A stretch of 64,000 bases of DNA from Siphonodentalium dalli. Lineage: Eukaryota; Mollusca; Scaphopoda; Gadilida; Siphonodentaliidae. A program made the position numbers and the translations under genes. This document shows positions 1 to 61,711 of this stretch, piece by piece (position 1 is the first letter of the stretch; every line of letters starts with the position of its first letter). The notes under the pieces are model-generated. The model saw only the letters and a program-made list of their open reading frames with translations. It was not told where the DNA came from and made no database searches. The stretch lies in contig CP136063.1 in assembly GCA_032622095.1 (NCBI GenBank), positions 25,298,987 to 25,362,986 of the forward strand. Reading direction: 5' to 3'.

Positions 1-397
1 TGCAGCGTACGTTACTTCACAAGAGGAGGAGACGGTTCCAAAATTAATAGATTGTGAAGGGAAGACTGAGGCAACGATAACTATACACGAGTATGACATA
101 AGTAACGGATATTATCGACAACGAAATGTGACGTCTTATTGTGTTATATCCAACAGGTTTCCGATGAATGGCAACAAGCCATATTTCCGACTAAATCCTG
201 AAAAACAACAAACAAAACTAACAAATCATCTTCAAGACAAACTTAAAAACACTGATTACATGAGGACAGGCTCTTCTCAGAGAAAAGGTGGCACCCGGCC
301 ATCTTATGTTTCAGTGGTGTATGGACCATAAACTTGAACTGTCGTTTAAGGACATCTTAAAGGATACATTTTTCACATCCATTGAAAATAATGTTGA

Positions 398-868
398 AAA
401 CGAGCGTCGCACAGCAACTGCATTTATCCCGTCGGGTCGCTAAAACATGACAGCTAGAGAGACACGTTTGCATTTGTTTACCAAAACTAAGAATAGAACC
501 AAAACAAGATCACGTGCCCGATTGTGTCAGTTGCTAAATAAAGATGTGATGGATCACGCGGATCGATACACAAATTCCATTGGTGGGATTAACATGCAGT
601 ACTATATGATCATTAATAAGATTTAATAAGGCAACATCTGCCTGGTAATTTATTCGCAAGGTTACCAAAAACTCTCAGTAGCATCAGGGTAATATAATAT
701 AACCAAGGCTCTGATCGTTCTCAGTAAATCGGGAGAGCAGAACTATATCGCCGGAGGCACGTGATCAAGTCGTTAGAGGGCCAAGGTCTTTTCGCAAGAT
801 TCGAAAATTGGGGAAAGTATGTTTTTGTTAGAGCTCTCCGTTTTTTTGTATTTTGCCCGTCTTCCACG
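398..868 (+). mobile_element. 5' non-coding part of the SGNH/recombinase element, copy 1
   Basis: The stretch from about 398 (AAAACGAGCGTCGCACAGC) to the SGNH start is repeated at about 4081-4551, 8115-8583 and 15138-15550. The 15.1-kb copy lies in unrelated flanking DNA and its similarity to the others starts at AAAACGAGCG, which marks the element's left boundary. The stretch contains no convincing ORF. It is probably leader or terminal sequence of the element. Confidence 0.6.
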
Positions 869-1508
869 ATGGTTCGTGTGCTCGTTCTCGGCCATTCTTT
901 TGTTAATCGTCTGGGGTGCCATTTATACGGAGGGCCAAGGTGCAGGACATTCCCCAAATGGACCAATTTCGCCTGCAAGTTGAACATTAGTTCTCATCGG
1001 CGTAATGATAACAGTCCTTTGCGACACGTGTGCGTCCGATTCCTGGGTCGTTCGGGGGCGACAGTACGGCAGTTAAGGGACGACTGCGAAGTAAAGAGAA
1101 CTCTTGAGCGTTTCCGTCCAGATTTAGTGGTGTTACAGGTGGGGGCAAATGACCTTTGTTCCCTGGGTCCGGAAGTGGTCGCCTGCGAGATAGACGAGTA
1201 TGTGACCCACCTGCGTGCACATTATGGAGTTTCGGCCGTCTTTGTGAACCGCCTATTTACACGCCGTACGATTTCACGCCGATTCTCTGCCATCACCTTA
1301 GACGTCCTTAACCAGCGGATTCAGACGACAAACGTTATGCTGGGTAACTACTTCGAAGGCCGACCCAGTACTCTGGCGCCAGACCCGACTCGAGAGGGCA
1401 GTCCGGTACTTCTTGGCGGACGGCGTCCATTTCAACCTTGGGGGGATGCAGAAGTATTACTGGGGCGTCCGCGGAGCATTGCTCTTTTTCCTCAATCACA
1501 ACTATTAA
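869..1508 (+). pseudogene. SGNH-hydrolase-like protein of a mobile element, copy 1 (frameshifted)
   Basis: The frame opens at ATG 869. Residues 5-11 read LVLGHSF (block I, catalytic Ser of the GDSL/SGNH fold). LQVGANDL, around residues 90-96, is block III (GxND). Block V (ADGVHF, with the Asp-His pair) is present only in the +1 frame and ends at TAA 1506-1508. A frameshift between about 1330 and 1400 therefore breaks the protein; the original frame runs on uselessly to 1684. SGNH proteins are lipases, esterases or deacetylases, and such domains occur inside invertebrate transposable elements. The copy at 8584 shares the frameshift, so the lesion predates the tandem duplication. The substrate cannot be read from the sequence. 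Confidence 0.75.
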
Positions 1509-1636
1509 ACATTAACCTTGTATGTTGTAAATTACAAGAATTGATAAACTTAAAGTTACTCAATCCGATTTTGCTGGTCCCCATATCATCAGATACCAAC
1601 AACAATTATGACACCCAGAATGGGGATAAAGTAGTC

Positions 1637-2641
1637 CCCTGCGAACCGTTCGAGGTTCGGTTCGATTCGAAACCGCCGAGATGATTCGGTCCGGTTCGAA
1701 ACCTTATACTGGATTCATTTATATTGAACCTTTTCTTTAGTCCCGCAAAATGGGCAAATTTTACGTACTGGGAATTGTATATTGATTATATACCGTATAT
1801 TGATTGGTTTACATACAACTGTGTGATACTATGATTTTATGTTTACATTTGACATAATTAATTTGATCATTACTCACTGGGTGATATTTCATTTTGGCAT
1901 AACTTTATTCCATTCTCGCTAAACTAATAGCCAATAAGTTATGATTATTGATGAATACAGATCGAACAAGCTTTTTTTAATTCCGTAAACTGGCTGAAAC
2001 TGAATAGGTATATCCCGGGCAGCACTGGGATTCAACCAATCACAGTGAGGAGAAGGTGTGGTCATTGTTTATCAGCATAAATGATTGACATGATTATGTA
2101 GCCTGGTGTGCTTTGTCTTGTGACACATAATTGCTACAACACGACATCAGCACGCTTCGATCTTTGTCATGTGTTGTCACAGTTATATATTGACGAGCCT
2201 GTTAATAGTTACTGAGTGTCGACATTACAATAATAATATGCCGTACGGGTACTTAATTTATTCACAAGATAAAATTCACCCTGCACAGTGCTGATTATGG
2301 GACCCTACGTACATGTATGTTACTTTACCGATAAAAAATCATATTCGCTTGCAAAAACAGAAAATATCAGAACACAAAATGCGTAGATTTGAAACCAAAG
2401 TCGCAAACGAATAAACAGACTACCCATCTCCAATATAAAATAATTCTTTGTTGTGTAGTTATCTTATAGCTGTGTAGATGGGCAATAATTAAATAACCGT
2501 TGATTTTACTATAATATTGTCCACTCTATCCCTAGTCTACAACAACAAGGTCGGTGTTTGGATTCGAGGTTCGAATCGATTCGAAACCGAGACGATTCAG
2601 TTTCAAAGTTCGGTTCGACCTAAAATTTAAGGTTCGCAGGG
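1637..2641. mobile_element. Inverted-repeat element, TIR CCCTGCGAACC (unit 1 copy)
   Basis: CCCTGCGAACC (1637-1647) is matched in inverted orientation by GGTTCGCAGGG (2631-2641). Beside each end lies a subterminal run of GGTTCGATTCGAAACC-like motifs. The interior is AT-rich with no coding signal. The same element is at 5599-6621 in unit 2. I could not identify a target duplication, so the superfamily is undetermined; ends of CCC...GGG would fit a piggyBac-like MITE, but no TTAA flank is seen. Confidence 0.55.
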
Positions 2642-3683
2642 CCCTAGGATAAAGATAAATATATAACAAATTACAAGGATGGATAAACTCAATGATTAAA
2701 GTATTATACTGATCTGTTCAATCAGGGGTTTACATAGAGCAATTTTATCGATTACAGACAATTAAGCGACCGAGCCCCAGTGTCTAGTTAACCAATGTCG
2801 TTATTAGATCTGCATGGAACATGATCAGAAAACATTTTCCATGGGACAGATTCTCAGACTCTGCTTGGATCAGAAAACTCTGGGATTCTTCTGTTGTGTC
2901 AGAACTTCATACGGTTTTCCAGAAAATTTAAAGACATATTATGGACTTGTTCAGGTGCATTAAATTGTTAAGTTAGTATTCAGGCGGTATGCCAGCTGGA
3001 GGAATATAGCATTCTACTACATCGCCAAAAATCTCAAACAGATCGACCGTACCACCCAATAGAAACATCATCTGAACTATGCTCAATTGTAAATATTTAC
3101 TTCTCGATTCGGGACGCAACTATCGGCGACAAAGTAACGAAAACGATTTTGCCATCAAGAGTCACTGAATTTAATTTATATATAATAATGGCGGTGTGTG
3201 TTATTCAGTTTGGATTTAAGATTTGTAAAAATAACTACATGTACTTTGAGCAAGATATTCTCCATTTCTATTGGTTCACTCTACCGGAGTGTTTAATATC
3301 ACTTTAAGAGGATATTGTAAGAGATATCCAGCTCGAAAACATATACATACGAAAACACAGGAAATGTTTAACTTCCTCACGTGGTCAGGCTCGTAAGAAG
3401 AAAAACAGTCGTAATTATCATAATTACCATGCTTCCATTTACTGCAGAAAAAAGGTACAGCACATAAGTTCCAGCCAGAGGTGACAGAAATTCTAAAAAA
3501 CAAACAACCCGACTTCACAAAGTTACGAAAACTTGGAGATCACAAAAATAACCAACTGACAGTAGCACCCAAAGTAAGTGTACATGTATATTTAAATGCA
3601 CACGAAATCCGGACATGTCTGGGACCAAATTTTTAGCAGCACTGGTAACTTGTGACTTGATTTCAACAGAAGACGAGAAAAAC
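2642..3683. other. Non-coding remainder of unit 1
   Basis: This is about 1 kb of AT-rich sequence shared with unit 2 (6622-7715). No domain, splice signal or terminal repeat is recognisable. Small differences from unit 2 are point changes and indels, and the short open frames are not maintained between copies. Confidence 0.5.
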
Positions 3684-4551
3684 TGCAGCGTACGTTACTT
3701 CACAAGAGGAGGAGACGGTTCCAAAATTAATAGATTGTGAAGGGAAAACTGAGGCAGCGATAACTACACACGAGTATGACATAAGTAACGGATATTATCG
3801 ACAACGAAATGTGACGTCTTATTGTGTTATATCCAACAGGTTTCCGATGAATGGCAACAAGCCATATTTCCGACTAAATCCTGAAAAACAACAAACAAAA
3901 CTAACAAATCATCTTCAAGACAAACTTAAAAACACTGATTACATGAGGACAGGCTCTTCTCAGAGAAAAGGTGGCACCCGGCCATCTTATGTTTCAGTGG
4001 TGTATGGACCATAGACTTGAACTGTCGTTTAAGGACATTTTAAAGGATACATTTTTCACATCCATTGAAAATAATGTTGAAAACGAGCATCGCACAGCGA
4101 CCGCATTTATCCCGTCGGGTCGCTAAAACATGACAGCTAGAGAGACACGTTTGCATTTGTTTACCAAAACTAAGAATAGAACCAAAACAAGATCACGTGC
4201 CCGATTGTGTCAGTTGCTAAATAAAGATTTGATGGATCACGCGGATCGATACACAAATTCCATTGGTGGGATTAACATGCAGTACTATATGATCATTAAT
4301 AAGATTTAATAAGGCAACATCTGCCTGGTAATTTATTCGCAAGGTTACCAAAAACTCTCAGTAGCATCAGGGTAATATAATATAACCAAGGCTCTGATCG
4401 TTCTCAGTAAATCGGGAGAGCAGAACTATATCGCCGGAGGCACGTGATCAAGTCGTTAGAGGGCCAAGGTCTTTTCGCAAGATTCGAAAATTGTGGAAAG
4501 TATGTTTTTGTTGGAGCTCTCCGTTTTTTTGTATTTTGCCCGTCTTCCACG

Positions 4552-4608
4552 ATGGTTCGAGTGCTCGTTCTCGGCCATTCTTTTGTTAATCGTCTGGGGT
4601 GCCATTTG
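4552..4608 (+). pseudogene. SGNH-like protein, copy 2, truncated after block I
   Basis: The frame begins at ATG 4552 and carries block I (LVLGHSF), but homology to copies 1 and 3 stops near 4608. The sequence then switches to unrelated DNA, so blocks III and V are absent. The frame reads on to a stop at about 4698. This is a deletion-derived remnant in the middle tandem unit. Confidence 0.75.
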
Positions 4609-4765
4609 GATAAACAATTTGTAATGTATCCTTCGCTACAAAGAAAACTTTCAGTTACCAGACGCAAATCTTTTCTGCTTCAGCATTTTTATATCTAAGG
4701 ATATAGAACATGTACATGTATAAGGAGAAAAATTTGTGTCTTGTTTTTTCTCTTAATTCTACGAT

Positions 4766-5230
4766 GTGCGAGATAAGAAGTATATAACCATTAGTTCATT
4801 CAGTGACAGAGATATAATTCCTATCATTGTAGGTAGATTCTCTAAGTGGGAAGCTACACCAACTCTTATATCCAGTGCAAGTCAGTCAGCACTCCGCAGC
4901 CCATTCTTATATCCAGTGCAAGTCAGTCAGCACTGCGCAGCCCATTACACTCTTTATTTTGATCATTTATTTCTTAAGATGGTTATATCTGTTTTATTTT
5001 GTCAACATGTTCATTATCTTGTAGATGGGAAAAGTAAAATATGCAAAGAGACGTGGACTGACCATGAAAATGAGGTGTTTTGGTCTTTACTTGAAGAATC
5101 ATTAAAGAAAAAGACTGTGCCAAAAAGTCATCTATTACAACAAGTTGCTGATGCATTTAATAGCAGCAGGACCATAGCTCAACTGAGGACAAGATGTCAT
5201 AATATTAATAACAAGAAACACAACTTCTAG
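4766..5230 (+). CDS. Myb/SANT-like DNA-binding fragment (exon-like)
   Basis: The C-terminal third (about 5035-5230) reads like a Myb/SANT or MADF-type trihelical domain. It has a leading Trp (TWTDHENEVFW), a second helix with SLLEES, and a third helix around AQLRTRCHNI. Such domains are common in transposon-encoded accessory proteins and transcription factors. The N-terminal part of the open frame has a 40-bp internal direct duplication (ATCCAGTGCAAGTCAGTCAG at about 4869 and 4913) and is probably not coding, so the true exon likely starts near 5020. It exists only in unit 2, where less of this neighbouring sequence was deleted. Confidence 0.4.
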   Translation: MRDKKYITISSFSDRDIIPIIVGRFSKWEATPTLISSASQSALRSPFLYPVQVSQHCAAHYTLYFDHLFLKMVISVLFCQHVHYLVDGKSKICKETWTDHENEVFWSLLEESLKKKTVPKSHLLQQVADAFNSSRTIAQLRTRCHNINNKKHNF

Positions 5231-5598
5231 ATTTTTCCTTCATATTTAGCTCAACAAATCAAGATATGCTATTGCCTCAAGCCTCTGTGTGTGCATAAAA
5301 TACTTCCTTTAGATAGAAGATACAAGGCATGGGTAACAAATCATGTCAAAGATTAAAATGGTAATAATCGAATCAGAATCGATCGCTGAACATTTAGTTT
5401 TATAAGGAGTATAACATATCATCTGTAAAATTGCAAGAAAATAGTAACACAATGAAAATTAGAATGGGGATAAATATAAGTATATTTAACTAATTACAAG
5501 GATTGATAAACTTAAAGGTACTCAATCCGATTTTGATGGTCCCCATATCATCAGATACCAACAACAATTATGACACCCAGAATGGGGATAAAGTAGTC

Positions 5599-6621
5599 CC
5601 CTGCGAACCGTTCGAGGTTCGGTTCGATTCGAAACTGCCGAGATGATTCGGTCCGGTTCGAAACCTTAGACTGGATTCATTTATATTGAACCTTTTCTTT
5701 AGTCCCGCAAAATGGGCAAATTTTACGTACTGGGAATTGTTTATTGATTATATACCGTATATTGATTGGTTTACATACAACTGTGTGATACTATGATTTT
5801 ATGTTTACATTTGACATAATTAATTTGATCATTACTCACTGGGTGATATTTCATTTTGGCATAACTTTATTCCATTCTCGCTAAACTAATAGCCAATAGG
5901 GCTATGATTATTGATGAATACAGATCGAACAAGCTTTTTTTAATTCCGTAAACTGGCTGAAACTGAATAGGTATATCCCGGGCAGCTCTTATGTGTCAAC
6001 AATGGGATTCAACCAATCACAGTGAGGAGAAGGTGTGGTCATTGTTTATCAGCATAAATGATTGACATGATTATGTAGCCTGGTGTGCTTTGTCTTGTGA
6101 CACATAATTGCTACAACACGACATCAGCACGCTTCGATCTTTGTCGTGTGTTGTCACAGTTATATATTGACGAGTCTGTTAATAGTTACTGAGTGTCGAC
6201 ATTACAATAATAATATGCCGTACGGGTACTTAATTTATTCACAAGATAAAATTCACCCTGCACAGTGCTGATTTTGGGACCCTACGTACATGTATGTTAC
6301 TTTACCGATAAAAAATCATATTCGCTTGCAAAAACAGAAAATATCAGAACACAAAATGCGTAGATTTGAAACCAAAGTCGCAAACGAATAAACAGACTAC
6401 CCATCTCCAATATAAAATAATTCTTTGTTGTGTAGTTATCTTATAGCTGTGTAGATGGGCAATAATTAAATAACCGTTGATTTTACTATAATAATGTCCA
6501 CTCTATCCCTAGTCTACAACAACAAGGTCGGTGTTTGGATTCGAGGTTCGATTCGATTCGAAACCGAGACGATGATTCGGTTTCAAAGTTCGGTTCGACC
6601 TAAAATTTAAGGTTCGCAGGG
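5599..6621. mobile_element. Inverted-repeat element, TIR CCCTGCGAACC (unit 2 copy)
   Basis: This is the second copy of the element at 1637-2641, with the same 11-bp inverted ends and subterminal TTCGAA-rich motifs. It differs by small indels, including a short insertion near 5987. Being inside the tandem unit, it was copied with the unit rather than by its own transposition. Confidence 0.55.
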
Positions 6622-6656
6622 CCCTAGGATAAAGATAAATATATAACAAATTACAA

Positions 6657-6785
6657 GGATGGATAAACTCAATGATTAAAGTATTATAATGATCTGTTCA
6701 ATGAGGGGTTTACATAGAGCAATGGATAAACTCAATGATTAAAGTATTATACTGATCTGTTCAATCAGGGGTTTACATAGAGCAA
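6657..6785. repeat. 64-bp tandem duplication
   Basis: The sequence from GGATAAACTCAATGATTAAA to ACATAGAGCAAT appears twice in a row here but once in unit 1 (about 2680-2745). It is a local slippage or unequal-exchange event specific to unit 2. Confidence 0.85.
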
Positions 6786-8583
6786 TTTTATCGATTACAG
6801 ACTATTAAGCGACCGAGCCCCAGTGTCTAGTTAACCAATGTCGTTATTAGATCTGCATGGAACTTGATCAGAAAACATTTTCCATGGGACAGATTCTCAG
6901 ACTCTGCTTGGATCAGAAAACTCTGGGATTCTTCTGTTGTGTCAGAACTTCATACGGTTTTCCAGAAAATTTAAAGACATATTATGGACTTGTTCAGGTG
7001 CATTACATTGTTAAGTTAGTATTCAGGCGGTATGTCAGCTGGAGGAATATAGCATTCTACTACATCGCCAAAAATCTCAAACAGATCGACCGTACCACCC
7101 AATAGAAAACATCATCTGAACTATGCTCAATTGTAAATATTTACTTCTCGATTCGGGACGCAACTATCGGCGACAAAGTAACGAAAACGATTTTGCCATC
7201 AAGAGTCACTGAATTTAATTTATATATAATAATGGCGGTGTGTGTTATTCAGTTTGGATTTAAGATTTGTAAAAATAACTACTTTGAGCAAGATATTCTC
7301 CATTTCTATTGGTTCACTCTACCGGAGTGTTTAATATCACTTTAAGAGGATATTGAAAGAGATATCCAGCTCGAAAACATATACATACGAAAACACAGGA
7401 AATGTTTAACTTCCTCACGTGGTCAGGCTCGTAAGAAGAAAAACAGTCGTAATTATCATAATTACCATGCTTCCATTTACTGCAGAAAAAAGGTACAGCA
7501 CATAAGTTCCAGCCAGAGGTAACAGAAATTCGAAAAATCAAACAACCTGACTTCACAAAGTTACGAAAACTTGGAGATCACAAAAAAAACCAACAGACAG
7601 TAGCACCCAAAGTAAGTGTATAATTAAATGCACACGAAATCCGGACATGTGTGGGACCAAATTTTTAGCAGCACTGGTAACTTGTGATTTGATTTCAACA
7701 GAAGACGAGAAAAACTGCAGCGTACGTTACTTCACAAGAGGAGGAGACGGTTCCAAAATTAATAGATTGTGAAGGGAAGACTGAGGCAGCGATAACTACA
7801 CACGAGTATGACATAAGTAACGGATATTATCGACAACGAAATGTGACGTCTTATTGTGTTATATCCAACAGGTTTCCGATGAATGGCAACAAGCCATATT
7901 TCCGACTAAATCCTGAAAAACAACAAACAAAACTAACAAATCATCTTCAAGACAAACTTAAAAACACTGATTACATGAGGACAGGCTCTTCTCAGAGAAA
8001 AGGTGGCACCCGGTCATCTTATGTTTCAGTGGTGTATGGACCATAAACTTGAACTGTCGTTTAAGGACATCTTAAAGGATACATTTTTCACATCCATTGA
8101 AAATAATGTTGAAAACGAGCGTCGCACAGCGACCGCATTTATCCCGTCGGGTCGCTAAAACATGACAGCTAGAGAGACACGTTTGCATTTGTTTACCAAA
8201 ACTAAGAATAGAACCAAAACAAGATCACGTGCCCGATTGTGTCAGTTGCTAAATAAAGATTTGAAGGATCACGCGGATCGATACACAAATTCCATTGGTG
8301 GGATTAACATGCAGTACTATATGATCATTAATAAGATTTAATAAGGCAACATCTGCCTGGTAATTTATTCGCAAGGTTACCAAAAACTCTCAGTAGCATC
8401 AGGGTAATATAAGATAACCAAGGCTCTGATCGTTATCAGTAAATCGGGAGAGCAGAACTATATCGCCGGAGGCACGTGATCAAGTCGTTAGAGGGCCAAG
8501 GTCTTTTCGCAAGATTCGAAAATTGGGGAAAGTATGTTTTTGTTAGAGCTCTCCGTTTTTTTGTATTTTGCCCGTCTTCCACG

Positions 8584-9220
8584 ATGGTTCGTGTGCTCGT
8601 TCTCGGCCATTCTTTTGTTAATCGTCTGGGGTCCCATTTATACGGAGGGCCAAGGTGCAGAACATTCCCCAAATGGACCAATTTCGCCCGCAAGTTGAAC
8701 ATTAGTTCTCATCGGCATAATGATAACAGTACTTTGCGACATGTGTGCGTCAGGTTCCTGGGTCGTTCGGGGGCGACAGTACGGCAGTTAAGGGGCGACT
8801 GCGAAGTAAAGAGAACTCTTGAGCGTTTCCGTCCAGATTTAGTGGTGTTACAGGTGGGGGCAAATGACCTTTGTTCCCTGGGTCCGGAAGTGGTCGCCTG
8901 CAAGATAGACGAGTATGTGACCCACCTGCGTGCACATTATGGAGTTTAGGCCGTCTTTGTGAACCGCCTATTTACATGCCGCACAATTTCACGCCGATTC
9001 TCTGCCATCACCTTAGACGTCCTTAACCAGCGGATTCAGACGACAAACGTTATGCTGGGTAACTACTTCGAAGGCCGACCCGGTACTCTGGTGCCAGACC
9101 CGACTCGAGAGGGCAGTCCGGTACTTCTTGGCGGACGGCGTCCATTTCAACCTTGGGGGGATGCAGAAGTATTACTGGGGCGTCCGCGGAGCATTGCTCT
9201 TTTTCCTCAATCACTACTAG
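8584..9220 (+). pseudogene. SGNH-hydrolase-like protein of a mobile element, copy 3 (stop plus frameshift)
   Basis: The frame opens at ATG 8584 with block I LVLGHSF and block III LQVGANDL. It is cut by TAG at 8947-8949, where copy 1 has TCG. Downstream it shares copy 1's frameshift. Block V (ADGVHF) then reads in the +1 frame to TAG 9218-9220. Unlike copies 1 and 2, the DNA after it continues into the rest of the element, with the recombinase domain at 9600-9931. This is therefore the copy that shows the element's gene order, SGNH then tyrosine recombinase on the same strand. Confidence 0.75.
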
Positions 9221-9502
9221 TATTAAACATTAACGTTGTCGTCACTGCTTATATCGATATTCTCGGGTCGTGGCAGGGGCTTTGCCCCTCAGTCACTCCT
9301 CCATGCCCTTTCGTCGGGTAGCATACCGATTGGGTGGGCCCCGGTTTTTTATTTTCCAGGGGAATACAGGTATAATTTTTATTTTCCAGGGGAATCCAGG
9401 TATATATATGTCACTTCTGTCCCTCCATAACTCGTCGTATTTAATATTTCCTTTCCTTAGGACGGCGCCACGCACCAATTCCCCTCGCTTCCCGTAAGAA
9501 TA
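9221..9502. other. Spacer between SGNH and recombinase pieces
   Basis: No domain was recognised. It contains a short direct repeat of a TTTTTATTTTCCAGGGGAAT motif (about 9346 and 9377). A TTTCCTTAG acceptor-like site lies near 9461, just before a GC-rich stretch that could be the start of a recombinase exon. Confidence 0.35.
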
Positions 9503-9598
9503 CAGGGTTCATACGAGTGCTTGTATATCTTGAAAGTGCTTAAATTTGGTTTTGGATTTTTCAAGCTCTTGAAAGTCATTGAATTGTCTCTCAAACAG
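9503..9598 (+). mobile_element. hAT-type terminal fragment interrupting the recombinase region
   Basis: CAGGGTTCATACGAGTGCTTG, followed by repeated CTTGAAA motifs, matches the terminal style of the two hAT elements at 44127 (CAGGGTTCGTAC) and 50664 (CAGGGTTCCCGC). No opposite end is found nearby, so it is a truncated or solo terminus. It sits just upstream of the recombinase domain. Confidence 0.5.
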
Positions 9599-9599
9599 A

Positions 9600-9931
9600 C
9601 AAACACGCTGTGTTCCCCATCGTATTCGCGTCGGGGCCAGCCGCACACCTATTTGCCCCATCGAGGCCATGCGCAGTACTTGCGCTTCCGAGGCGCTCAT
9701 CCTGGTCCCTTGTTTAGCTGGCCCGATGGCCGCCCTTTATTATATGGCCCCTTCGCCGCAGTGTTGCGAACGTGCCTCACCTATTGCGCTTTAGACCACA
9801 TCCTGATTAAGGCTCATAGTTTTCGGATTGGTGCGGCTTGCTGGGCGGCGGGGAGAGGGTATTCTGATGCCCAGATCCGGTTGATGGGGAGGTGGAAGTC
9901 AAATGCCTTTATGTCATACATCCGGGGTTGA
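9600..9931 (+). pseudogene. Tyrosine recombinase, C-terminal catalytic domain (partial)
   Basis: The open frame covers the C-terminal half of a tyrosine (phage integrase/XerD-type) recombinase of the kind in DIRS/Ngaro- and Crypton-like animal elements. The catalytic core is visible: HSFRIGAA (box II H-x-x-R), GRW in place of the usual H/W region, and SYIRG, whose Tyr is the expected nucleophile, at the very end before TGA 9929-9931. The N-terminal SAM-like domain and the first catalytic Arg are not found; the sequence before 9600 is a hAT-like fragment. The enzyme would cut and rejoin DNA via a 3'-phosphotyrosine link to insert or excise the element. This copy is broken but its catalytic tail is well preserved. 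Confidence 0.8.
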
Positions 9932-10680
9932 TACAGGTCCCTCTTGGTTTCACTTCGCCTGAGCGAGTGGAATATCGCACCCACACCCCGTTTGCATATT
10001 TTACATTTGTAACAGTCACTTATTGAGTCTGCCCGTTGTTTGAGCGCGGTCAGCCTTGCTTGCCTATTCCTCAATGTTATTATGTTATTCCTTACTGGCT
10101 TTCTAATAAAATTTGCAACCGAAACTGAGCGCTCGTGCTTCCTTTGCCCGGGGGCAGGCTAGTCGTTCCCTGTGGTGACAGGCTCTGTAGCACGTTGCTT
10201 GAGCGGGTGCGACAGGGGCTGTCATCCAGCTTTTCATCGCGACTTCAGATATAGTTTCACTGCGATTTCACCGGGAAATAGCTACCCCTTCCAGCCAGGA
10301 CTTAGTTGCGGCGGTGGGGACCTCCTCACTTCTCCCCTTCGGTTATTTGTCGTTCACTCCAGTGGTGGCCCCTGGGGCGCTTTGTTTGAGCAAGTGCTGC
10401 AGGGTACCGTCTCTCCACATCAAACCATTAATTCATTTTCATTTCGCCTCTGCGGAACTCTTGGCCCTTCGCTTGTGCGAGGTCCAGTTTTTATTATATG
10501 TCCCACCTTCCAGCACTCACCCCCCCTTTTTTGGTGGGATCGAAATGCATGCTCAGCATGCAGTTCGATTTTGGCGCATTGTGGGCCAAAAAAGGAAGAC
10601 GCGAAGCAAGCAATGGATAACTGGACAGTGAACATCCTACCAATAATTTCGCGACTACCTTTTTGATTAATAATTCATTA
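9932..10680 (+). mobile_element. 3' non-coding region of the SGNH/recombinase element
   Basis: GC-richer than its surroundings and without a recognised domain. An AATAAA at 10105-10110 is a possible polyadenylation signal. A hairpin with 15-bp arms (10539-10553 and 10555-10569, one mismatch) lies near the 3' end. About 10570-10680 is repeated almost exactly at 15695-15805, at the end of the short derivative, which fixes the right boundary close to ATTAATAATTCATTAA. Confidence 0.55.
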
Positions 10681-10712
10681 AATGAAAGTGTCAATGACAC
10701 TGTATCTCAACT
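10679..10712. repeat. Terminal palindrome AGTGTCA-N-TGACACT (first SGNH element)
   Basis: 10687-10701 reads AGTGTCAATGACACT, a perfect 7+1+7 palindrome, preceded by AAATGAA. The reverse complement of 10679-10712 matches 61568-61604 and, less well, 61675-61711 beyond the second SGNH element. A dyad of this size is the form expected of a recombinase binding/crossover site. That role is inference. Confidence 0.5.
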
Positions 10713-24715: not shown

Positions 24716-25530
24716 CCGACAAATCATATTGAGGCGAGATGCCGACCAATCATATTGAGGCGAGATGCCGACCAATCATATTGAGGCGAATGGGTCCCAA
24801 CATTAGTGATGAACTAGCCGACCTATCATATTGAGGCGAGATGCGTCCCAACATTAGTGATGAACTAGCCGACCTATCATATTGAGGCGAGATGCGTCCC
24901 AACATTAGTGATGAACTAGCCGACCTATCATATTGAGGCGAGATGCGTCCCAACATTAGTGATGAACTAGCCGACCTATCATATTGAGGCGAGATGCGTC
25001 CCAACATTAGTGATGAACTAGCCGACCTATCATATTGAGGCGAGATGCGTCCCAACATTAGTGATGAACTAGCCGACCTATCATATTGAGGCGAGATGCG
25101 TCCCAACATTAGTGATGAACTAGCCGACCTATCATATTGAGGCGAGATGCGTCCCAACATTAGTGATGAACTAGCCAACCTATCATATTGAGGCGAGATG
25201 CGTCCCAACATTAGTGATGAACTAGCCGACCTATCATATTGAGGCGAGATGCGTCCCAACATTAGTGATGAACTAGCCGACCTATCATATTGAGGCGAGA
25301 TGCGTCCCAACATTAGTGATGAACTAGCCGACCTATCATATTGAGGCGAGATGCGTCCCAACATTAGTGATGAACTAGCCGACCTATCATATTGAGGCGA
25401 GATGCGTCCCAACATTAGTGATGAACTAGCCGACCTATCATATTGAGGCGAGATGCGTCCCAACATTAGTGATGAACTAGCCGACCTATCATATTGAGGC
25501 GAGATGCGTCCCAACATTAGTGATGAAAAG
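24716..25530. repeat. 51-bp minisatellite (about 15 copies)
   Basis: The unit contains GACCTATCATATTGAGGCGA, then GATGCGTCCCAACATTAGTG and ATGAACTAGCC. Copies are nearly identical (one has CAACC for CGACC); the first are truncated variants. Because 51 is divisible by three, the minus strand is open for 255 codons of a 17-residue repeat. That is a consequence of the period and not good evidence of a protein. Confidence 0.95.
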
Positions 25531-25571
25531 GATATCAGTGTTCACAAATTAGCAAAATACTGAAGCTAACA

Positions 25572-44126: not shown

Positions 44127-44898
44127 CAGGGTTCGTACACCTCCTGAAATTCCTTGAAACTCCTTGAATTTGGTAATAACCTTTCAAGGGCCCTGGAAAA
44201 CTCCTTAAATATATAAAGGTATATGAATCTCCTGGAAAACTCCTTAAATTTTAGTATTATTGGTTCATGATGCCCTTTTAATGTTAATAATATTTATTTA
44301 GAATCTTCCGTAGTCGCCAATCTAGCGACAAATTATGTCTACCACATACAGAGCATTTATAATGAAACAGACTATAGTTGGGGTATGCAGTAACACTGGA
44401 AATCCCCAATCTATTATTGTATATTTTTACCAGGAAGAAGTTAAATTATGGTATATCTTTTGTGTTTTACACACGTGCGTGAAGCGTGAAAATTGTGTCA
44501 AATTCTTTTGTCAATAACAATGCCCGATGGGAAGTGTATTTTTAATCCGGATTGGCTAACAAAGGATCAATACAAACTATGGGTTCAGCGTCATGGTTCA
44601 GATAAACATCGTGCGTATTGTGTCCTTTGCAAAAGTTCGTTTGATGTAGCGAATATGGGTGAATCGGCGTTGGTCAGCCACACCAAATCAAAAAAGCTCA
44701 GGACAGCCAGTGGCGGACAGACTTCATCGCAGACGCTTGCCAACTTTAATTATCAAATGCCAGCATCTTCATCAAATAACAGTACCACTCCTTCTACAAG
44801 CAATGCTAGTATGACAAATCAAAATGTACCCACGCAGCAGTCGCAATTGCCTATTTCCGCGGCAGCAGCTAAAACCGATACACTGACGGCAGAGAGAC
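44127..44898 (+). mobile_element. hAT element A, 5' end only
   Basis: It starts with CAGGGTTCGTACACCTCCTG and subterminal CTCCTTGAA/CTCCTTAAA repeats typical of hAT ends, followed by a BED-finger reading frame. It is cut at 44898, where the duplicated foldback end begins. The insertion point is inside the 70-bp repeat of copy 1. Confidence 0.75.
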
Positions 44899-44963
44899 GT
44901 CCCAAATACCGTCCCATACCGTCCCAATACCGTCCCGTCCCATCGTCCCATTCTGCATTTTAG
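44520..44963 (+). pseudogene. BED-type zinc-finger N-terminus of hAT transposase A (truncated)
   Basis: From ATG 44520, residues 5-45 form a BED-like finger: a WLTKDQYKLWVQ helix, CVLCKSSF (the Cys pair) and SALVSHTKSKKLR (the His ligand region). A Ser/Thr/Gln-rich linker follows. At about 44898 the coding sequence joins foldback terminal repeats and the frame reads through them by chance (RPIPSQYRP repeats) to 44963. The RNase-H-like catalytic domain is missing. It is homologous in architecture to the ORF at 51050. Confidence 0.8.
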
Positions 44964-50663: not shown

Positions 50664-52063
50664 CAGGGTTCCCGCGGGTCCTTGAAACCCTTAAATTCCA
50701 GTACCAGCCCTTGAAAACCCTTGAATGTGAACCTAATATATAAACACAAGATAGAAGGTATACACCAGGTTATAACGCAATGCGAACACACGATGTCAAC
50801 TTGCATAGAGACATACGGAACACAGTGACCTAACGACCTGTGACCAACTGACATAGAATGTAAATAGTGGCTATTACGCGCTATGAATTTCACACTGTTA
50901 ACAGTAGTAACAATCGATCGAGTAATTATGTATTGCTCATTGTGATTGGTCAATGACTATCCCCTCCAGCTATTAACAAATCAAATTGCACGTAACATAT
51001 CCGAAGTCGGCTGAAAACACAGCGTGTCACCAATGCTCGAAATAGAAATATGACAGGAGGGAAATACAAATTCAATAATAAATGGCTCTCAAATCAAGAG
51101 TATTCTGCATGGCTACGCGCAGTAGCCGACAACAAACACAATGCAAGGTGCTTATTCTGTCAAACGAATATAGACCTCTCTGTCATGGGGGAGCATGCCA
51201 TTAAAAGTCATACTAAAAGTGACAAGCATAAAAAAGCCGTCAGAGAAAGGGGGAACTTAATAACCATTTCTTCTGCCTTGAATTCCACTGCCAGCTCAGA
51301 CCAACAACAACAACAAGAGCAGCGCAATACTAGTACTACCCAACCTGTAACTATTAGCACTGTGTCGTCCCTGGTGACCAGCAGCGATGTACTCAAGGTT
51401 GAACTTTTGTGGTGTGCAAACATGTGTGCAAGTCATTACAGCTACAACAGCTGTTCAACTGTATCTAAAGTATTTCATCAAATGTTTCCTGATAGACAAA
51501 TAGCTAGGCAGCTGAGTTTAGGGGAAAACAAATCGATGTATTGAACTGTGTTTGGTCTTGGTGCATATTACCAGAATATTACTCTGGACAATATAAAATC
51601 TTCAAACATGAACTATATTGTCCTTATGTTTGATGAGTCCCACAACAGGTCATTAGAAAAGAAACAGCTAGATGTGTATATAAGATACTGGGACGTCACA
51701 ATCAGTGTGAAAACAGTATATTTCAACTCGGAATTTCTAGGGCATGGACGCGCCGATCACTTACTGCCTGTCTTGTTGTCAAAAATCGAAAAGGTGGATG
51801 CCTTCCATAAAATGATTCAACTATCAATGGACGGGCCCAATGTGAACTGGAAGGTATGGGAGTTGATGCTGTCAACCATAGCTGATAAATCTGAAAATTC
51901 GAAGCTTCTGAATGTTGGAAGTTGTGGTTTACATACTGTCCATAACTCGTTTAAGAACGGTTTCGCCAATGATAGTGTTGCAAAAGTCTTGAAATCTTTG
52001 TTCTGGCTTTTTAAAGGTGCACCAGCTCGATGGGATGACTATATTCATCAATATGTTTACAGA
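50664..52063 (+). mobile_element. hAT element B, 5' two-thirds
   Basis: It begins CAGGGTTCCCGCGGGTCCTT, with subterminal CCCTTGAAA repeats, and contains the transposase frame. Homology to a hAT breaks off near 52063, where a dispersed non-coding repeat takes over. No 3' terminus was found. Confidence 0.75.
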
Positions 52064-52084
52064 CGGCAACATATATCTTGTTGA
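51050..52084 (+). pseudogene. hAT-like transposase with BED finger, one stop codon, C-terminus lost
   Basis: From ATG 51050: a BED-like finger (WLSNQEYSAWL, CLFCQTNIDLS, HAIKSHTKSDKH), a Ser/Thr/Gln linker, then the start of an RNase-H-like catalytic region. An in-frame TGA at 51542-51544 is the only interruption; the frame continues unchanged with NYIVLMFDESHN (candidate first catalytic Asp), a KKQLDVYIRYWD strand, SMDGPNVNWK and CGLHTVHNSFKNG. It ends artificially after FKGAPARWDDY, so the last part of the catalytic domain and dimerisation region are missing. DNA cut-and-paste activity is impossible for this copy, but it is relatively young. Confidence 0.85.
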
Positions 52085-58440: not shown

Positions 58441-59096
58441 ATTATTTAATGGCCATTAATTAAGTATTTTAAGAATTTGATACCCAGTTCAGGTCAAGGT
58501 CTAGACATGAACGCCCCTTTTGAGTTTCTTGAAAAAGGATTAATTTTATTAACAAAATTTAAATTTCTTTGCTTTTCAGCTCATTACTAAAAAAAAAATA
58601 TTTTCTTTTTTTTTTCAAATGTTTTTTTATCTTTAAAAAAATGCGAGTAATGAGGGCAAATCGCCGACATTAGTCTTTTATGAATCTGTCCTGTCTATTT
58701 TTAACAGTAATGGAATAGGAATATTTGTTTCTTAGTTTTGAGTTATATTAATGGGCATAACATAAGTTTAGTCCCTTGAGCACGATAGCAAATAGTTAGG
58801 AAATAAAACGTCAGTACGATAATTATAACACATTAGATTTCGCGTTTTGAAAAGGAACTATTTTTCGAGTCTGACTACATTACTTGAGGAGCGAGACAGG
58901 CATATGGATACGGCCTCTTTTCTGCGAATATCAGGCTGACAATTCCACCAAAACATCGCTCAGCAGCAGAAAAGAGCACGTTATTCTCATTAAACATAAC
59001 AGGTAATCTGACTTTTTAATTTTACTTATTATTAACATTTGTCGGATTTTATTTACACTATTTACGGTATTTCTACGCTGCTCATTTCCACGTAAT
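58441..59096. other. Region upstream of the second SGNH element
   Basis: AT-rich, with poly-A/poly-T stretches near 58590-58640. No gene was recognised. The element's 5' end must lie here but its boundary is not visible. Confidence 0.35.
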
Positions 59097-59135: not shown

Positions 59136-59898
59136 ATGACTCAGCGTCATTTTCACACACGAGTGGCTGCGATTGGCCATTCCTTTGTTGTGCGTCTTGG
59201 TCGTTTCCTCCGACGCAGGTATGCTCGTCAGCATGGACACAGAGTCTTTCCCGGTGATCGCTTGTATAATTATGCCAATGCATTCAAGTTAAAACAGCAT
59301 AATGGCCGGCCTCTCGATATTCAGTTTTTTGCCAAAGGTGGCAATACGTTGGCGGACGTTTCGGCCTATCTTAACCGCCTCCGAAAATTTTGGCCTCACA
59401 TAATCATACTACAGATCGGCTGTGCACCAAATTACCTCAGTCTGTCGGGAGTATCACCAATGATTTTGTTGGTGAAGTTCTGAAATGCAAATCTGTCAGG
59501 ATGGTTATGGCGTGTCAAGCTTTTTATCGAGTTCGGATCCATGGAGGAAAGGAACCGGCCATCTATGATAAACATGTAGACATGCTGAACCAATATAACT
59601 CGGTTGTGCTCCCCGACAGTCTAGTTCGGTGCACACCTGGCATCATGGCCGGTTACAGCCAAAAGCAAGGGCCTTCTTCTATGATGGCATTCATTTTAAC
59701 CCCCTTGGGGAACATTTATATGCCAAGAGCCTTAGGGGAGCTATTTATTTTATTTGCATTGAACAGGGTAACTTGGTATTAATGGCACTTGTCTCAGCCA
59801 CACAACCTTTTGCTGACCGGCTTGTGGCCAGCTACAGGTCTATTTTAATTTTATGCCTTTTGCACTGGCTGATATTACATCTAATCATATTCATATGA
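59136..59898 (+). pseudogene. SGNH-hydrolase-like protein of a second mobile element (two frameshifts)
   Basis: From ATG 59136: block I reads AAIGHSFVVRLGRF (catalytic Ser in GHSF). The block III region LQIG is followed by a one-base shift near 59420-59435, so GxND is damaged. The middle frame carries VGEVLKCKSVRMVMACQAFY. A second shift near 59650 leads to block V, FYDGIHFNPLGEHLYAKSL, with the Asp-His pair intact. Order and spacing match the first SGNH copies, and LRGAIYF parallels VRGALLF there, so the two are distant members of one element family. An intron-like gap and a gag-like ORF follow. Confidence 0.75.
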
Positions 59899-60279
59899 CC
59901 ATATAAACAATGATCACGATCTTTGCCTTGGCTTGCTTAATCACACATTGTTACTTTGAAAATCGTTATCGTCAGGGTTTGTTCTCTTTCTCCATTAACA
60001 TACGAATATAATTACCACTTACAGTGCCACAGTTTGAGTCTCAGTGTTTAGTTATTTTCACCACACCCCCACCAAATGTGCTACCAAATATTCAATATAT
60101 AGGTACTGGCTGTGGCACCGGCATTTATACCAGGAATTCATGGTGGTTTAATATTTACTATAATTCATGGCGACCTATACCATCTTATCATACCTTAACC
60201 ATTAACGATTATTGTAAATCATGGCACTCAATTATCATGTATTGACCTCCTTCTGCTTTGGTTACTCTTCTTTTCACAG
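59899..60279 (+). other. Intron-like or spacer region
   Basis: No coding signal. It ends in TTACTCTTCTTTTCACAG (about 60262-60279), a strong polypyrimidine tract plus acceptor directly before the hairpin and gag-like frame. No donor was assigned. Confidence 0.45.
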
Positions 60280-61560
60280 CCTACCCCCGCTTCTGTACAA
60301 TTCTGCGTTTCTTTGGAGACAAAGAAGCGCAGAATTGTACAGAAGTGGGGGCGTCGTGCGGTCACAGATATAGTAAATTCCACGGCCGATGATTCTTCCA
60401 GGACGGTGCCACTGGACTTATCACTTCCATACACTGGGAATGATACGACACAACTTAATATCCAATCACCGGCACACAACTCACATTCTTTACCGGTACA
60501 AATACCGGTCTGGGACCTTTCTTGTTCTCATTCAATGTCGGTGCCTACTAGTTTATCAAACCCGACAGTTCTGGCACCGATTAATTATCAGATTCCGGCA
60601 TATTCATCAGTTCCGGCACCAGCAACAACAAACACTTCTCACATGCATATGCCAATATTTTTCAGTGCCTTAACATTCCAGTGTCCTATATAAACACTCC
60701 AGCTACATCAACCATCCGGCCGTTCTGGACAGTTTCTAATCCGACCGTCCCAGTTCATTCTCTGAACCCGCTTCCATGGACTTGCAGCACGTACACGGAT
60801 CCATCCGTGCATATGAACATTCCATCGACCAGTGACGTTCAACCTGTGTCAAACTCACATGTACATGTAGTTACCAGTGCTGTTGCAGCCTCTCATCATG
60901 AACTATCGGACAATCATGACATTTCATGTGATAATTTGCCATCACAGGTTGCCTCGGCAATCACCACCGTCATGCAGGAAGCAGGTAATACTGTCAGGGA
61001 TATTCTCAGTTTTCAATCAGAACTTCAGCAGGTCATCTCATCCTTTTTACATGCTGACAACAACAGTAGCCAGGGGCCAAGGGTTGATATTATTCCAAGT
61101 CCAATTGTCCCTCTCATCCCTCAAATGGCAACACCCGCTGTAGCTGGCACAGCAAATACATCATCAGCCCTCCATACGGCCACCACTGTGCCATTTTTGA
61201 TCACATCACATGTGCCCTTACAAGTCAAAACACAAATTTGGGCTAATGAGCCCATCAATTTAGCCATACTTCTCCCCAGCAACCAATCAGATGAGCCCAC
61301 TTGTGACCCATCTGGTCCGCCATGGGGCCATATACAGGGTCAACCTCATCCTGTGGTGTATGTCCCCAATCCACCCCGCAAAATTACAACATTATATCAG
61401 CCGAAAAAGGTTATGACTGGCTATTATATGACCGGGAATTCCGCGCTCTTAGAGCGACTACATTAGACTTGCCTTGGCAAACCACCAACTAGGATCTACA
61501 CGAGCGGGCTTTGCCATTAGTTCCATTGCATAGCACTATCATCAGAGATGATGCTTGTTA
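60280..61560 (+). pseudogene. Gag-like, Pro/Ser/Thr-rich protein of the second SGNH element (frameshifted)
   Basis: After the acceptor at 60279 the frame reads KKRRIVQKWGRRAV, then a long low-complexity Pro/Ser/Thr/Asn tract to a shift near 60680. A second frame continues to 61466 with an amphipathic helix (SQVASAITTVMQEAGNTVRD) and QIWANEPINLAILL. A third frame after about 61405 carries DWLLYDREFRALRATTLDLP. The IWANE...LL and YDxxFRxLR pair resembles the C-terminal part of structural-type ORFs in invertebrate tyrosine-recombinase elements (from memory). A gag role is inferred. At least two frameshifts make it non-functional. Confidence 0.55.
60284..60351 (+). promoter_or_regulatory. 32-bp RNA-type hairpin with GAGA tetraloop
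   Basis: 60284-60315 and 60320-60351 pair over 32 positions around GAGA (60316-60319), a GNRA-type loop. The only two departures from perfect symmetry give G-U pairs in the sense RNA (60289 with 60346, and 60308 with 60327). The stem would thus stay fully paired in RNA of this strand but not of the other. It lies four bases past a splice acceptor and within the frame of the gag-like protein. Its role is unknown. Confidence 0.8.
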
Positions 61561-61566
61561 AAATGA

Positions 61567-61711
61567 AAGTGAGATAAGTTACAGTGTCATTGACACTTTC
61601 ATTTAATCCATGTATGGTATTCATTGTGACAACTACAGTAGACAATGTTGCTGTATTTTGATCAGTAATGTCAAGAGATAAGCTACAGTGTCATTGGCAC
61701 TATCATTTATA
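61567..61711. repeat. Terminal direct repeats with AGTGTCA-N-TGACACT palindrome
   Basis: GAGATAAGTTACAGTGTCAT and following CACTTTCATTTA (61571-61604) is repeated with changes at 61675-61711. The first copy has a perfect palindrome, AGTGTCA-T-TGACACT (61583-61597), and is also bracketed by AAATGAAAGTG and CACTTTCATTT. The same palindrome ends the first SGNH element at 10687-10701. Confidence 0.6.

Follow-up and report, generated by a model that had tools for sequence, protein, structure and literature searches.

The 64,000-nucleotide stretch of the scaphopod Siphonodentalium dalli genome analysed here (contig CP136063.1, positions 25,298,987 to 25,362,986, forward strand; hereafter the window) contains near its right end a locus in which an SGNH hydrolase sequence stands beside a gag-like open reading frame (ORF). 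This raises the question of what kind of mobile element combines the two, and whether the hydrolase belongs to it. A first-pass annotation of the window had left the class of the element open, as DIRS/Ngaro/Crypton-like, because no reverse transcriptase (RT) was seen. From comparison with other copies in the genome, we consider it very probable that the locus represents a dead copy, truncated at the 3' end, of a Ngaro-type tyrosine recombinase (YR) retrotransposon whose intact relatives carry SGNH between a 5' terminal repeat, A1, and gag; this confidence applies to identity and gene order only.

In the 2.23-Gb genome, intact relatives are ordered A1 - SGNH - gag - RT/RNase H - YR - B1 - A2 - B2. 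A whole-genome nucleotide search with the window stretch, in which the best 40 of 112 candidates were scored, identified 15 other places that match the whole gag-side stretch (query 941-2273), and complete units of ~7.0 kb surround these matches. Read in order, locus L010 encodes SGNH, gag with a zinc-finger C-terminus, RT/RNase H and YR, with Pfam matches for SGNH (PF00657, E 1.4e-7), RT (PF00078, 2.8e-14) and RNase H (PF17917, 2.6e-5). The single copy L016 has 354-bp direct repeats (A1/A2, 99.2% identical), one at each end. Contig C3 holds four units head to tail with starts ~7.0 kb apart, and this array ends with B1 (183 bp), A2 (deletion-bearing here), a 231-bp spacer and B2 (99.5% identical to B1). 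By its sequence, the A1...B1 A2 B2 layout is the split direct repeat described as a feature of Ngaro elements (PMC9210276, PMC4157794).

The first-pass annotation had proposed a family joining an esterase-fold protein, a structural-type protein and a tyrosine recombinase, and the full copies show all three. Rather than occurring separately with unrelated termini, SGNH, gag, RT/RNase H and YR stand in fixed order between matching repeats. Taken alone, the window copy, which has no RT or YR match, could pass for a Crypton-like DNA transposon or for several unrelated insertions side by side; since the same terminal repeats enclose RT/RNase H and YR in full copies, such readings are almost certainly wrong, and the Crypton-like part of the original classification falls away while its Ngaro part stands.

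Gene content and split repeats make the Ngaro assignment highly probable. The elements have an RT with RNase H, a YR with the R...HxxR...Y residues and an internal repeat pair downstream of YR, and no methyltransferase match was found by Pfam search at E<=1 in the RT ORFs of L010 and L036. PAT-like elements share YR and split direct repeats with those described here but fall in the DIRS group, defined by a methyltransferase domain (PMC4157794), and no such domain was found. A DIRS1-like element was rejected on the same negative result and on a self-blast of L016 on both strands, which returned only direct repeats and one 20-bp palindrome. In CR1/L2 long interspersed nuclear elements (LINEs) with an ORF1 esterase, such as ZfL2-1, SGNH also lies upstream of the polymerase (PMC3905857), but these have a LINE RT and an ORF1 fusion, with no YR and no split direct repeats; we rejected a LINE identity because YR and RNase H lie on the same element. 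The bdelloid Vesta long terminal repeat (LTR) and Athena elements likewise carry an extra SGNH/GDSL ORF, whose catalytic residues are preserved in Vesta (PMC5408684); they differ in being LTR or Penelope-like elements, with GDSL as ORF3 in the LTR ones. The Ngaro assignment is made from layout and domains. Counting against it, the YR matches to Pfam profiles fell under the cut-off (E 0.0069, 0.0053, 0.0021), so that the profile check suggested at first pass succeeded for SGNH and RT of L010 and failed for YR. Searches of IMG/VR with SGNH or RT profiles gave 21 and 114 pattern matches, respectively, among which no relative was confirmed.

Aligned with its relatives, the window copy extends from 58641 to ~61516 (Table 1). 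Its first 495 bases precede 59136, where the first-pass annotation had placed the start, overlooking A1; the left boundary TATGCGAGTAATG is common to 11 other loci with differing flanks. SGNH blocks I (IGHSFV) and V (DGIHFNPLG), which had been noticed at first pass, are present but in separate frames. Near 59420, a net loss of 10 bp removed block III (GGND) and shifted the frame, and at least one further frameshift lies ahead of block V. Using the L010 SGNH as query, tblastn matched 90% over 105 amino acids, 65% over 125 amino acids in a second frame, and block V in a third. The SGNH-gag spacer is mostly gone, with 18 bp between 60057 and 60076 compared to 615 bp in L015 (1433/2049). This is the intron-like gap of the first description: a spacer does exist, shortened by deletion, and we rejected a spliced-out intron because the break, which sits in short TTATTT(C) repeats, lacks GT-AG borders. 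The acceptor-like site and the Pro/Ser/Thr-rich ORF with its two motifs were also seen correctly. The gag fragment lacks ~100 bp near 61400-61409 and is truncated ahead of the zinc fingers; beyond A1 and gag, no match to RT, YR, B1, A2 or B2 was found in the window copy.

Two further features had been read as parts of the element. The inverted repeat over the gag start, described as an RNA hairpin, is real. Because five other aligned copies lack it and L018 matches a single arm, the alignment indicates that it is a private inverted duplication of the window copy, and we rejected it as a conserved RNA element. The 3' palindrome, previously regarded as the terminus shared with another SGNH element in the window, also exists, and its region shares 31 bp (97%) with window 10677-10707. 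It was rejected as the element end and appears to be an unrelated repeat, because window 61515-61640 matches seven other genome places (96%), with no other part of the query listed there, and five aligned relatives run on into gag past the point where the window copy stops. The genuine palindrome of intact elements lies elsewhere, at the junction of B and A repeats.

Table 1. Features of the window copy, the adjoining repeat and the first SGNH element (window coordinates)
Feature	Position	Strand	Basis or remark
A1, 5' split direct repeat, 352 bp	58641..58992	+	left terminus TATGCGAGTAATG; 94% to L018 from 58641
Candidate 5' splice site CAG/GTAATC	59000..59008	+	just past A1; read from sequence
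SGNH hydrolase ORF, degenerate	59136..59782	+	tblastn with intact L010 ORF and alignment
Deletion scar, ~600 bp lost at short TTATTT(C) repeats	60051..60076	+	blastn break against L015
Candidate 3' splice site CTTTTCACAG	60270..60279	+	5' of gag
Inverted repeat, 32-nt arms, 94% complementary	60284..60351		covers gag ATG region
gag fragment, Pro/Ser/Thr-rich ORF	60320..61516	+	motifs IWANEPINLAILL (IWANE) and YDREFRALR; alignment
Other repeat, two palindromic units (61571-61605, 61675-61709)	61520..61711		outside the element
First-element SGNH pieces	818-1204 + 1374-1496; 4501-4623; 8533-8919 + 9089-9211		
First-element YR C-terminus	9632-9925		order SGNH then YR

The window copy belongs to one family, here family A, of a wider clade. 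We searched the genome in six frames with SGNH (best 150 of 571 and best 150 of 555 candidates) and RT (best 83 of 2683). Among the matches listed, 73 of 84 RT rows had an SGNH match no more than 8 kb upstream in the same orientation (69 + 1 + 3; two of the 84 rows are pieces of one copy), with gap quartiles of 2.7 and 3.3 kb. The RT of the array at C3:133479485, for example, has its own SGNH 2740 bp upstream (C3:133476095-133476745). Counting against a uniform arrangement, 11 of the 84 RT rows had no SGNH among the matches listed.

Eight loci outside family A (L029-L036), with SGNH ~28-83% identical to that of the window family, all showed the order SGNH-gag-RT-YR, with SGNH only upstream of gag and never after YR. 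A1/A2 repeats of 97.7-100% identity were found in seven, two of which run off the examined stretch; L032 had no such pair within the stretch examined. The full A1...B1 A2 B2 layout was seen in family A and L035, and also in L030 with ~130 bp of A1 unmatched, while most other non-A stretches stop before B2; the A2-B2 spacer measures 231 bp in family A, 241 bp in L035 and 415 bp in L030. Gag carries a WA-E motif in 7/8 slices (L035 lacks the pattern), a YD--FR motif in 8/8 and a CCCH plus CCHC zinc-finger pair in 7/8, L030 lacking the first Cys of the pair; Pfam returned no credible match for any gag searched. The catalytic DD of RT (H..DD) is invariant in the seven aligned sequences, as YLDD in L010, L029 and L030 and MIDD in L031. 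The YR motifs AR(V/I/M)GE, HSFRIGA and YIR, which hold the R, HxxR and Y residues, occur in eight aligned loci, in two pieces in L030 and L032 and with one Arg replaced in L031 (HSFIIG). For the comparisons below, the eight families are a family A copy, L029-L032 and L034-L036; splice counts over nine families include L033 as well, whose broken SGNH was kept out of the SGNH alignments, the selection test and the trees.

Is the hydrolase a working part of these elements, or a passenger of host or LINE origin, not needed and placed 5' by accident? SGNH/GDSL ORFs do occur in unrelated retroelements, including CR1/L2, bdelloid LTR and Penelope-like elements (PMC3905857, PMC5408684). Selection within the family is also weak: pN/pS, the within-family ratio of nonsynonymous to synonymous differences, was 0.41 for SGNH (7 copies), 0.49 for RT (5) and 1.23 for YR (5) in family A, and one of the seven full-length SGNH copies, L023, has lost the catalytic His of block V (DGIRFN). 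These results count against a maintained enzyme; the ratios imply that recent copies evolve near neutrality, as expected of mostly dead copies. The comparison between families points the other way. SGNH keeps the same place in nine families down to ~30% identity, and in the eight with a whole ORF the catalytic residues are intact and the GHS, G69, G-ND and DG-H blocks invariant. Each of the eight has a PF13472 match at E<=0.01; the L010 score of 32.3 is under the cut-off of 32.9, although L010 does pass PF00657. The corresponding ratio of substitution rates between families (dN/dS) was 0.09-0.16 for SGNH (5/7 pairs; 2 saturated), 0.07-0.09 for RT (3/8 pairs) and 0.09 for YR (1/6 pairs; the remaining RT and YR pairs saturated), values that are rough because every usable dS exceeds 1. 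The test left out the SGNH ORFs of L011, L018 and L025, ORFs shorter than 200 amino acids (L016, L022, L024) and the YR of L034, which has an internal stop. SGNH is under purifying selection between families. The same three clades appeared in the SGNH, RT and YR trees (9, 10 and 9 rows), with a program warning about the joining of long branches in the SGNH tree. Because the catalytic blocks are kept, dN/dS between families is low and the three clades are common to all three proteins, these results are most simply read to mean that the common ancestor of the families already had SGNH and that it has been kept since. We regard the passenger explanation as largely refuted and very improbable; judged from these sequences, SGNH is an integral gene and not a recent passenger.

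The presence of SGNH in a Ngaro element is already known, while its place ahead of gag appears to be new. Xenopus DIRS-53_XT and DIRS-54_XT are Ngaro-like elements in which an SGNH ORF is reported after YR, with overlapping ORFs (PMC9210276). They resemble the elements described here in gag, RT/RNase H, YR, the lack of a methyltransferase, the A1...B1 A2 B2 repeats and the SGNH ORF itself. In contrast, SGNH here lies between A1 and gag, flanked by candidate splice sites, and a spacer parts A2 from B2. The Xenopus arrangement, a non-defining feature of the Ngaro group, was not found here. We found no mention of SGNH ahead of gag in the literature searched, although Goodwin and Poulter (2004) or Poulter and Butler (2015) may describe one.

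The position of SGNH bears on how the downstream genes are expressed. In 8/9 families a donor-like site scores best within the 160 nt before SGNH, and the ninth (L035) has a weak one; in 9/9 the best acceptor-like site, a pyrimidine-rich AG, precedes the gag ATG by 1-45 nt. That ATG is the first past the acceptor in all nine families, whereas the donor-acceptor stretch contains 18-57 ATGs. These candidate sites bracket SGNH and suggest that unspliced RNA yields SGNH and spliced RNA yields Gag-RT-YR. In such a scheme, unspliced RNA would serve as SGNH message and reverse-transcription template, and splicing from the pre-SGNH donor to the pre-gag acceptor would give the Gag-RT-YR message; if splicing is real, the RNA that is copied would be the unspliced form. 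Over the nine families, the scores exceeded dinucleotide shuffles (combined p 2.8e-5 and 4.8e-4), although these values depend on assumed base frequencies and on families that are related, the first of several points that weigh against splicing. Taken singly, 4/9 donors and 3/9 acceptors reached p<0.05. L035 has no good donor, and 5/5 control windows score as high; the acceptor score was equalled by 5/13 spacer windows in L031 and 6/20 in L036; and the L033 distance was counted from the match start. In family A, the A1:gag junction had no genome match with <=3 mismatches, and an SGNH-end:gag junction was not found in any genomic copy. We also considered and rejected an SGNH-Gag fusion through AACAGG/GTAACC at the SGNH end, which is in frame on paper in family A: the first SGNH element of the window has no donor there, and no copy of the junction was found.

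An alternative is that gag is made from unspliced RNA by internal ribosome entry within the SGNH-gag spacer, and that the GT/AG signals are due to chance, as the chance-level scores of several single sites might indicate. The spacers of families A and B each contain ~six repeated units (CCTGTTTACGCACC...GGTGTATGCGGG; L009:4747-5859 and L032:1452-2578, element strand), most of which fold as hairpins. Most 150-nt spacer windows were not unusually stable, though, and covariation stayed within shuffles: paired cells amounted to 83.5% compared to 82.0 in shuffles (118/500 reached the observed value), and pairs changed on both sides, further pair types and the covariation score were reached by 88, 54 and 66 of 500 shuffles, respectively. 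Because covariation did not exceed shuffles, we keep the array as an RNA element only as a suggestion. With the splice scores jointly above shuffles and gag starting at the first ATG after the acceptor throughout, internal entry seems unlikely.

The junction between B and A repeats offers a candidate site for mobility. Inverted arms of 15-25 nt surround a 25-35 nt centre and scored above all 200 shuffles each in 7/8 loci (first computed on six loci without controls and then on eight with controls; L032 is outside the set). The arms end in ATAAA and TTTAT, and their outer parts vary between families. Control stretches from element interiors scored >=9, the score of the weakest of the seven junctions, in 1 of 95 cases. 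The L036 junction argues against a general feature, as it is weaker (12-nt arms) and not above shuffles (43/200). By analogy with known YR elements, we infer that full-length RNA would be reverse transcribed into a circle in which the B/A junction is the closed junction and recombinase site, and that YR would integrate the circle without target duplication. At L035, where both ends were read, no clear target duplication was found, because the flanks share only ATAAAT, a sequence that also forms the junction of the element itself. In family A, the left ends mostly follow A/T-rich bases. The ~7.0-kb period of the tandem array would fit an A-to-B1 circle entering the junction of an existing copy, if it did not arise by unequal crossing-over, which would look alike.

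Two side observations concern the ends. Minisatellites with 26-, 38/44- and 31-bp units end <=5 bp from the element 5' end in 3/8 non-A loci (L029:7610-8000, L031:7396-8000 and L036:1-237, respectively), a pattern suggestive of insertion into tandem repeats. Immediately past A2, the families seen have a C-rich motif, CCCACC(A/T)CC(A/T)CCCC or a slight variant of it (element strand; L012:1857, L016:9844, L019:9584, L026:8709, L029:7769, L030:7402, L031:7946, L035:7042).

A circular intermediate would also provide a natural route between the two known gene orders, gag-RT-YR-SGNH in Xenopus and SGNH-gag-RT-YR here, if the terminal repeats had moved past SGNH. The cyclic order equals that reported for Xenopus (PMC9210276), and circular DNA is consistent with both the tandem array and the palindrome at the B/A junction. 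Independent gain of SGNH at two places is equally plausible, and the comparison with Xenopus is by reported gene order. We consider such a permutation possible, if somewhat doubtful; it adds to the best explanation and does not replace it. A more far-reaching reading, which we put forward tentatively and on balance rate as improbable, is that the whole clade keeps SGNH as the first gene within a retained intron. Unspliced RNA would be both message and template and spliced RNA would encode Gag-RT-YR; only intron-bearing RNA would be packaged, perhaps via the spacer hairpins; and the gene order would be a permuted form of the vertebrate SGNH-Ngaro order, fixed when the junction palindrome moved past SGNH.

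Other parts of the window contain related and unrelated remnants. In the first SGNH element (window 1-10708), one SGNH sequence is partly present three times, with ~28-44% identity to the window family where pieces match; no gag or RT match was found in this element. A minisatellite at 24750-25541 (-) repeats a 16-amino-acid unit, SLMLGRISPQYDRSAS, in one open frame. ORFs at 44490-44963 and 50996-52084 have similar zinc-finger-like starts (C..C...H...K) and by their look are presumably hAT/BED-type transposase remnants.

What might an esterase do for a retrotransposon? A PDB search with a single SGNH protein (phmmer) returned no matches. The best PDB profile match was a weak one, to 4c1b ('ORF1-encoded protein', E 0.0066), an entry that we take to represent the ZfL2-1 esterase from zebrafish L2. 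A role at membranes or lipids is our leading guess because the ORF1 esterase of ZfL2-1 shows hydrolytic activity and binds negatively charged phospholipids (PMC3905857). Like the SGNH domain of CR1/L2 ORF1 proteins, for which this has been proposed, the putative SGNH esterase may bring the ribonucleoprotein to lipid or membrane surfaces, a possibility that we hold with less than even confidence.

The junction palindromes, unlike in sequence yet alike in form across families, offer well-defined candidates for the recombination sites used in Ngaro integration. LINEs and LTR, Penelope-like and Ngaro elements have all acquired SGNH/GDSL enzymes, whose role is left open in the published accounts consulted. 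A clade with an old, co-inherited, catalytically intact and selected SGNH makes the need of a retrotransposon for an esterase directly testable.

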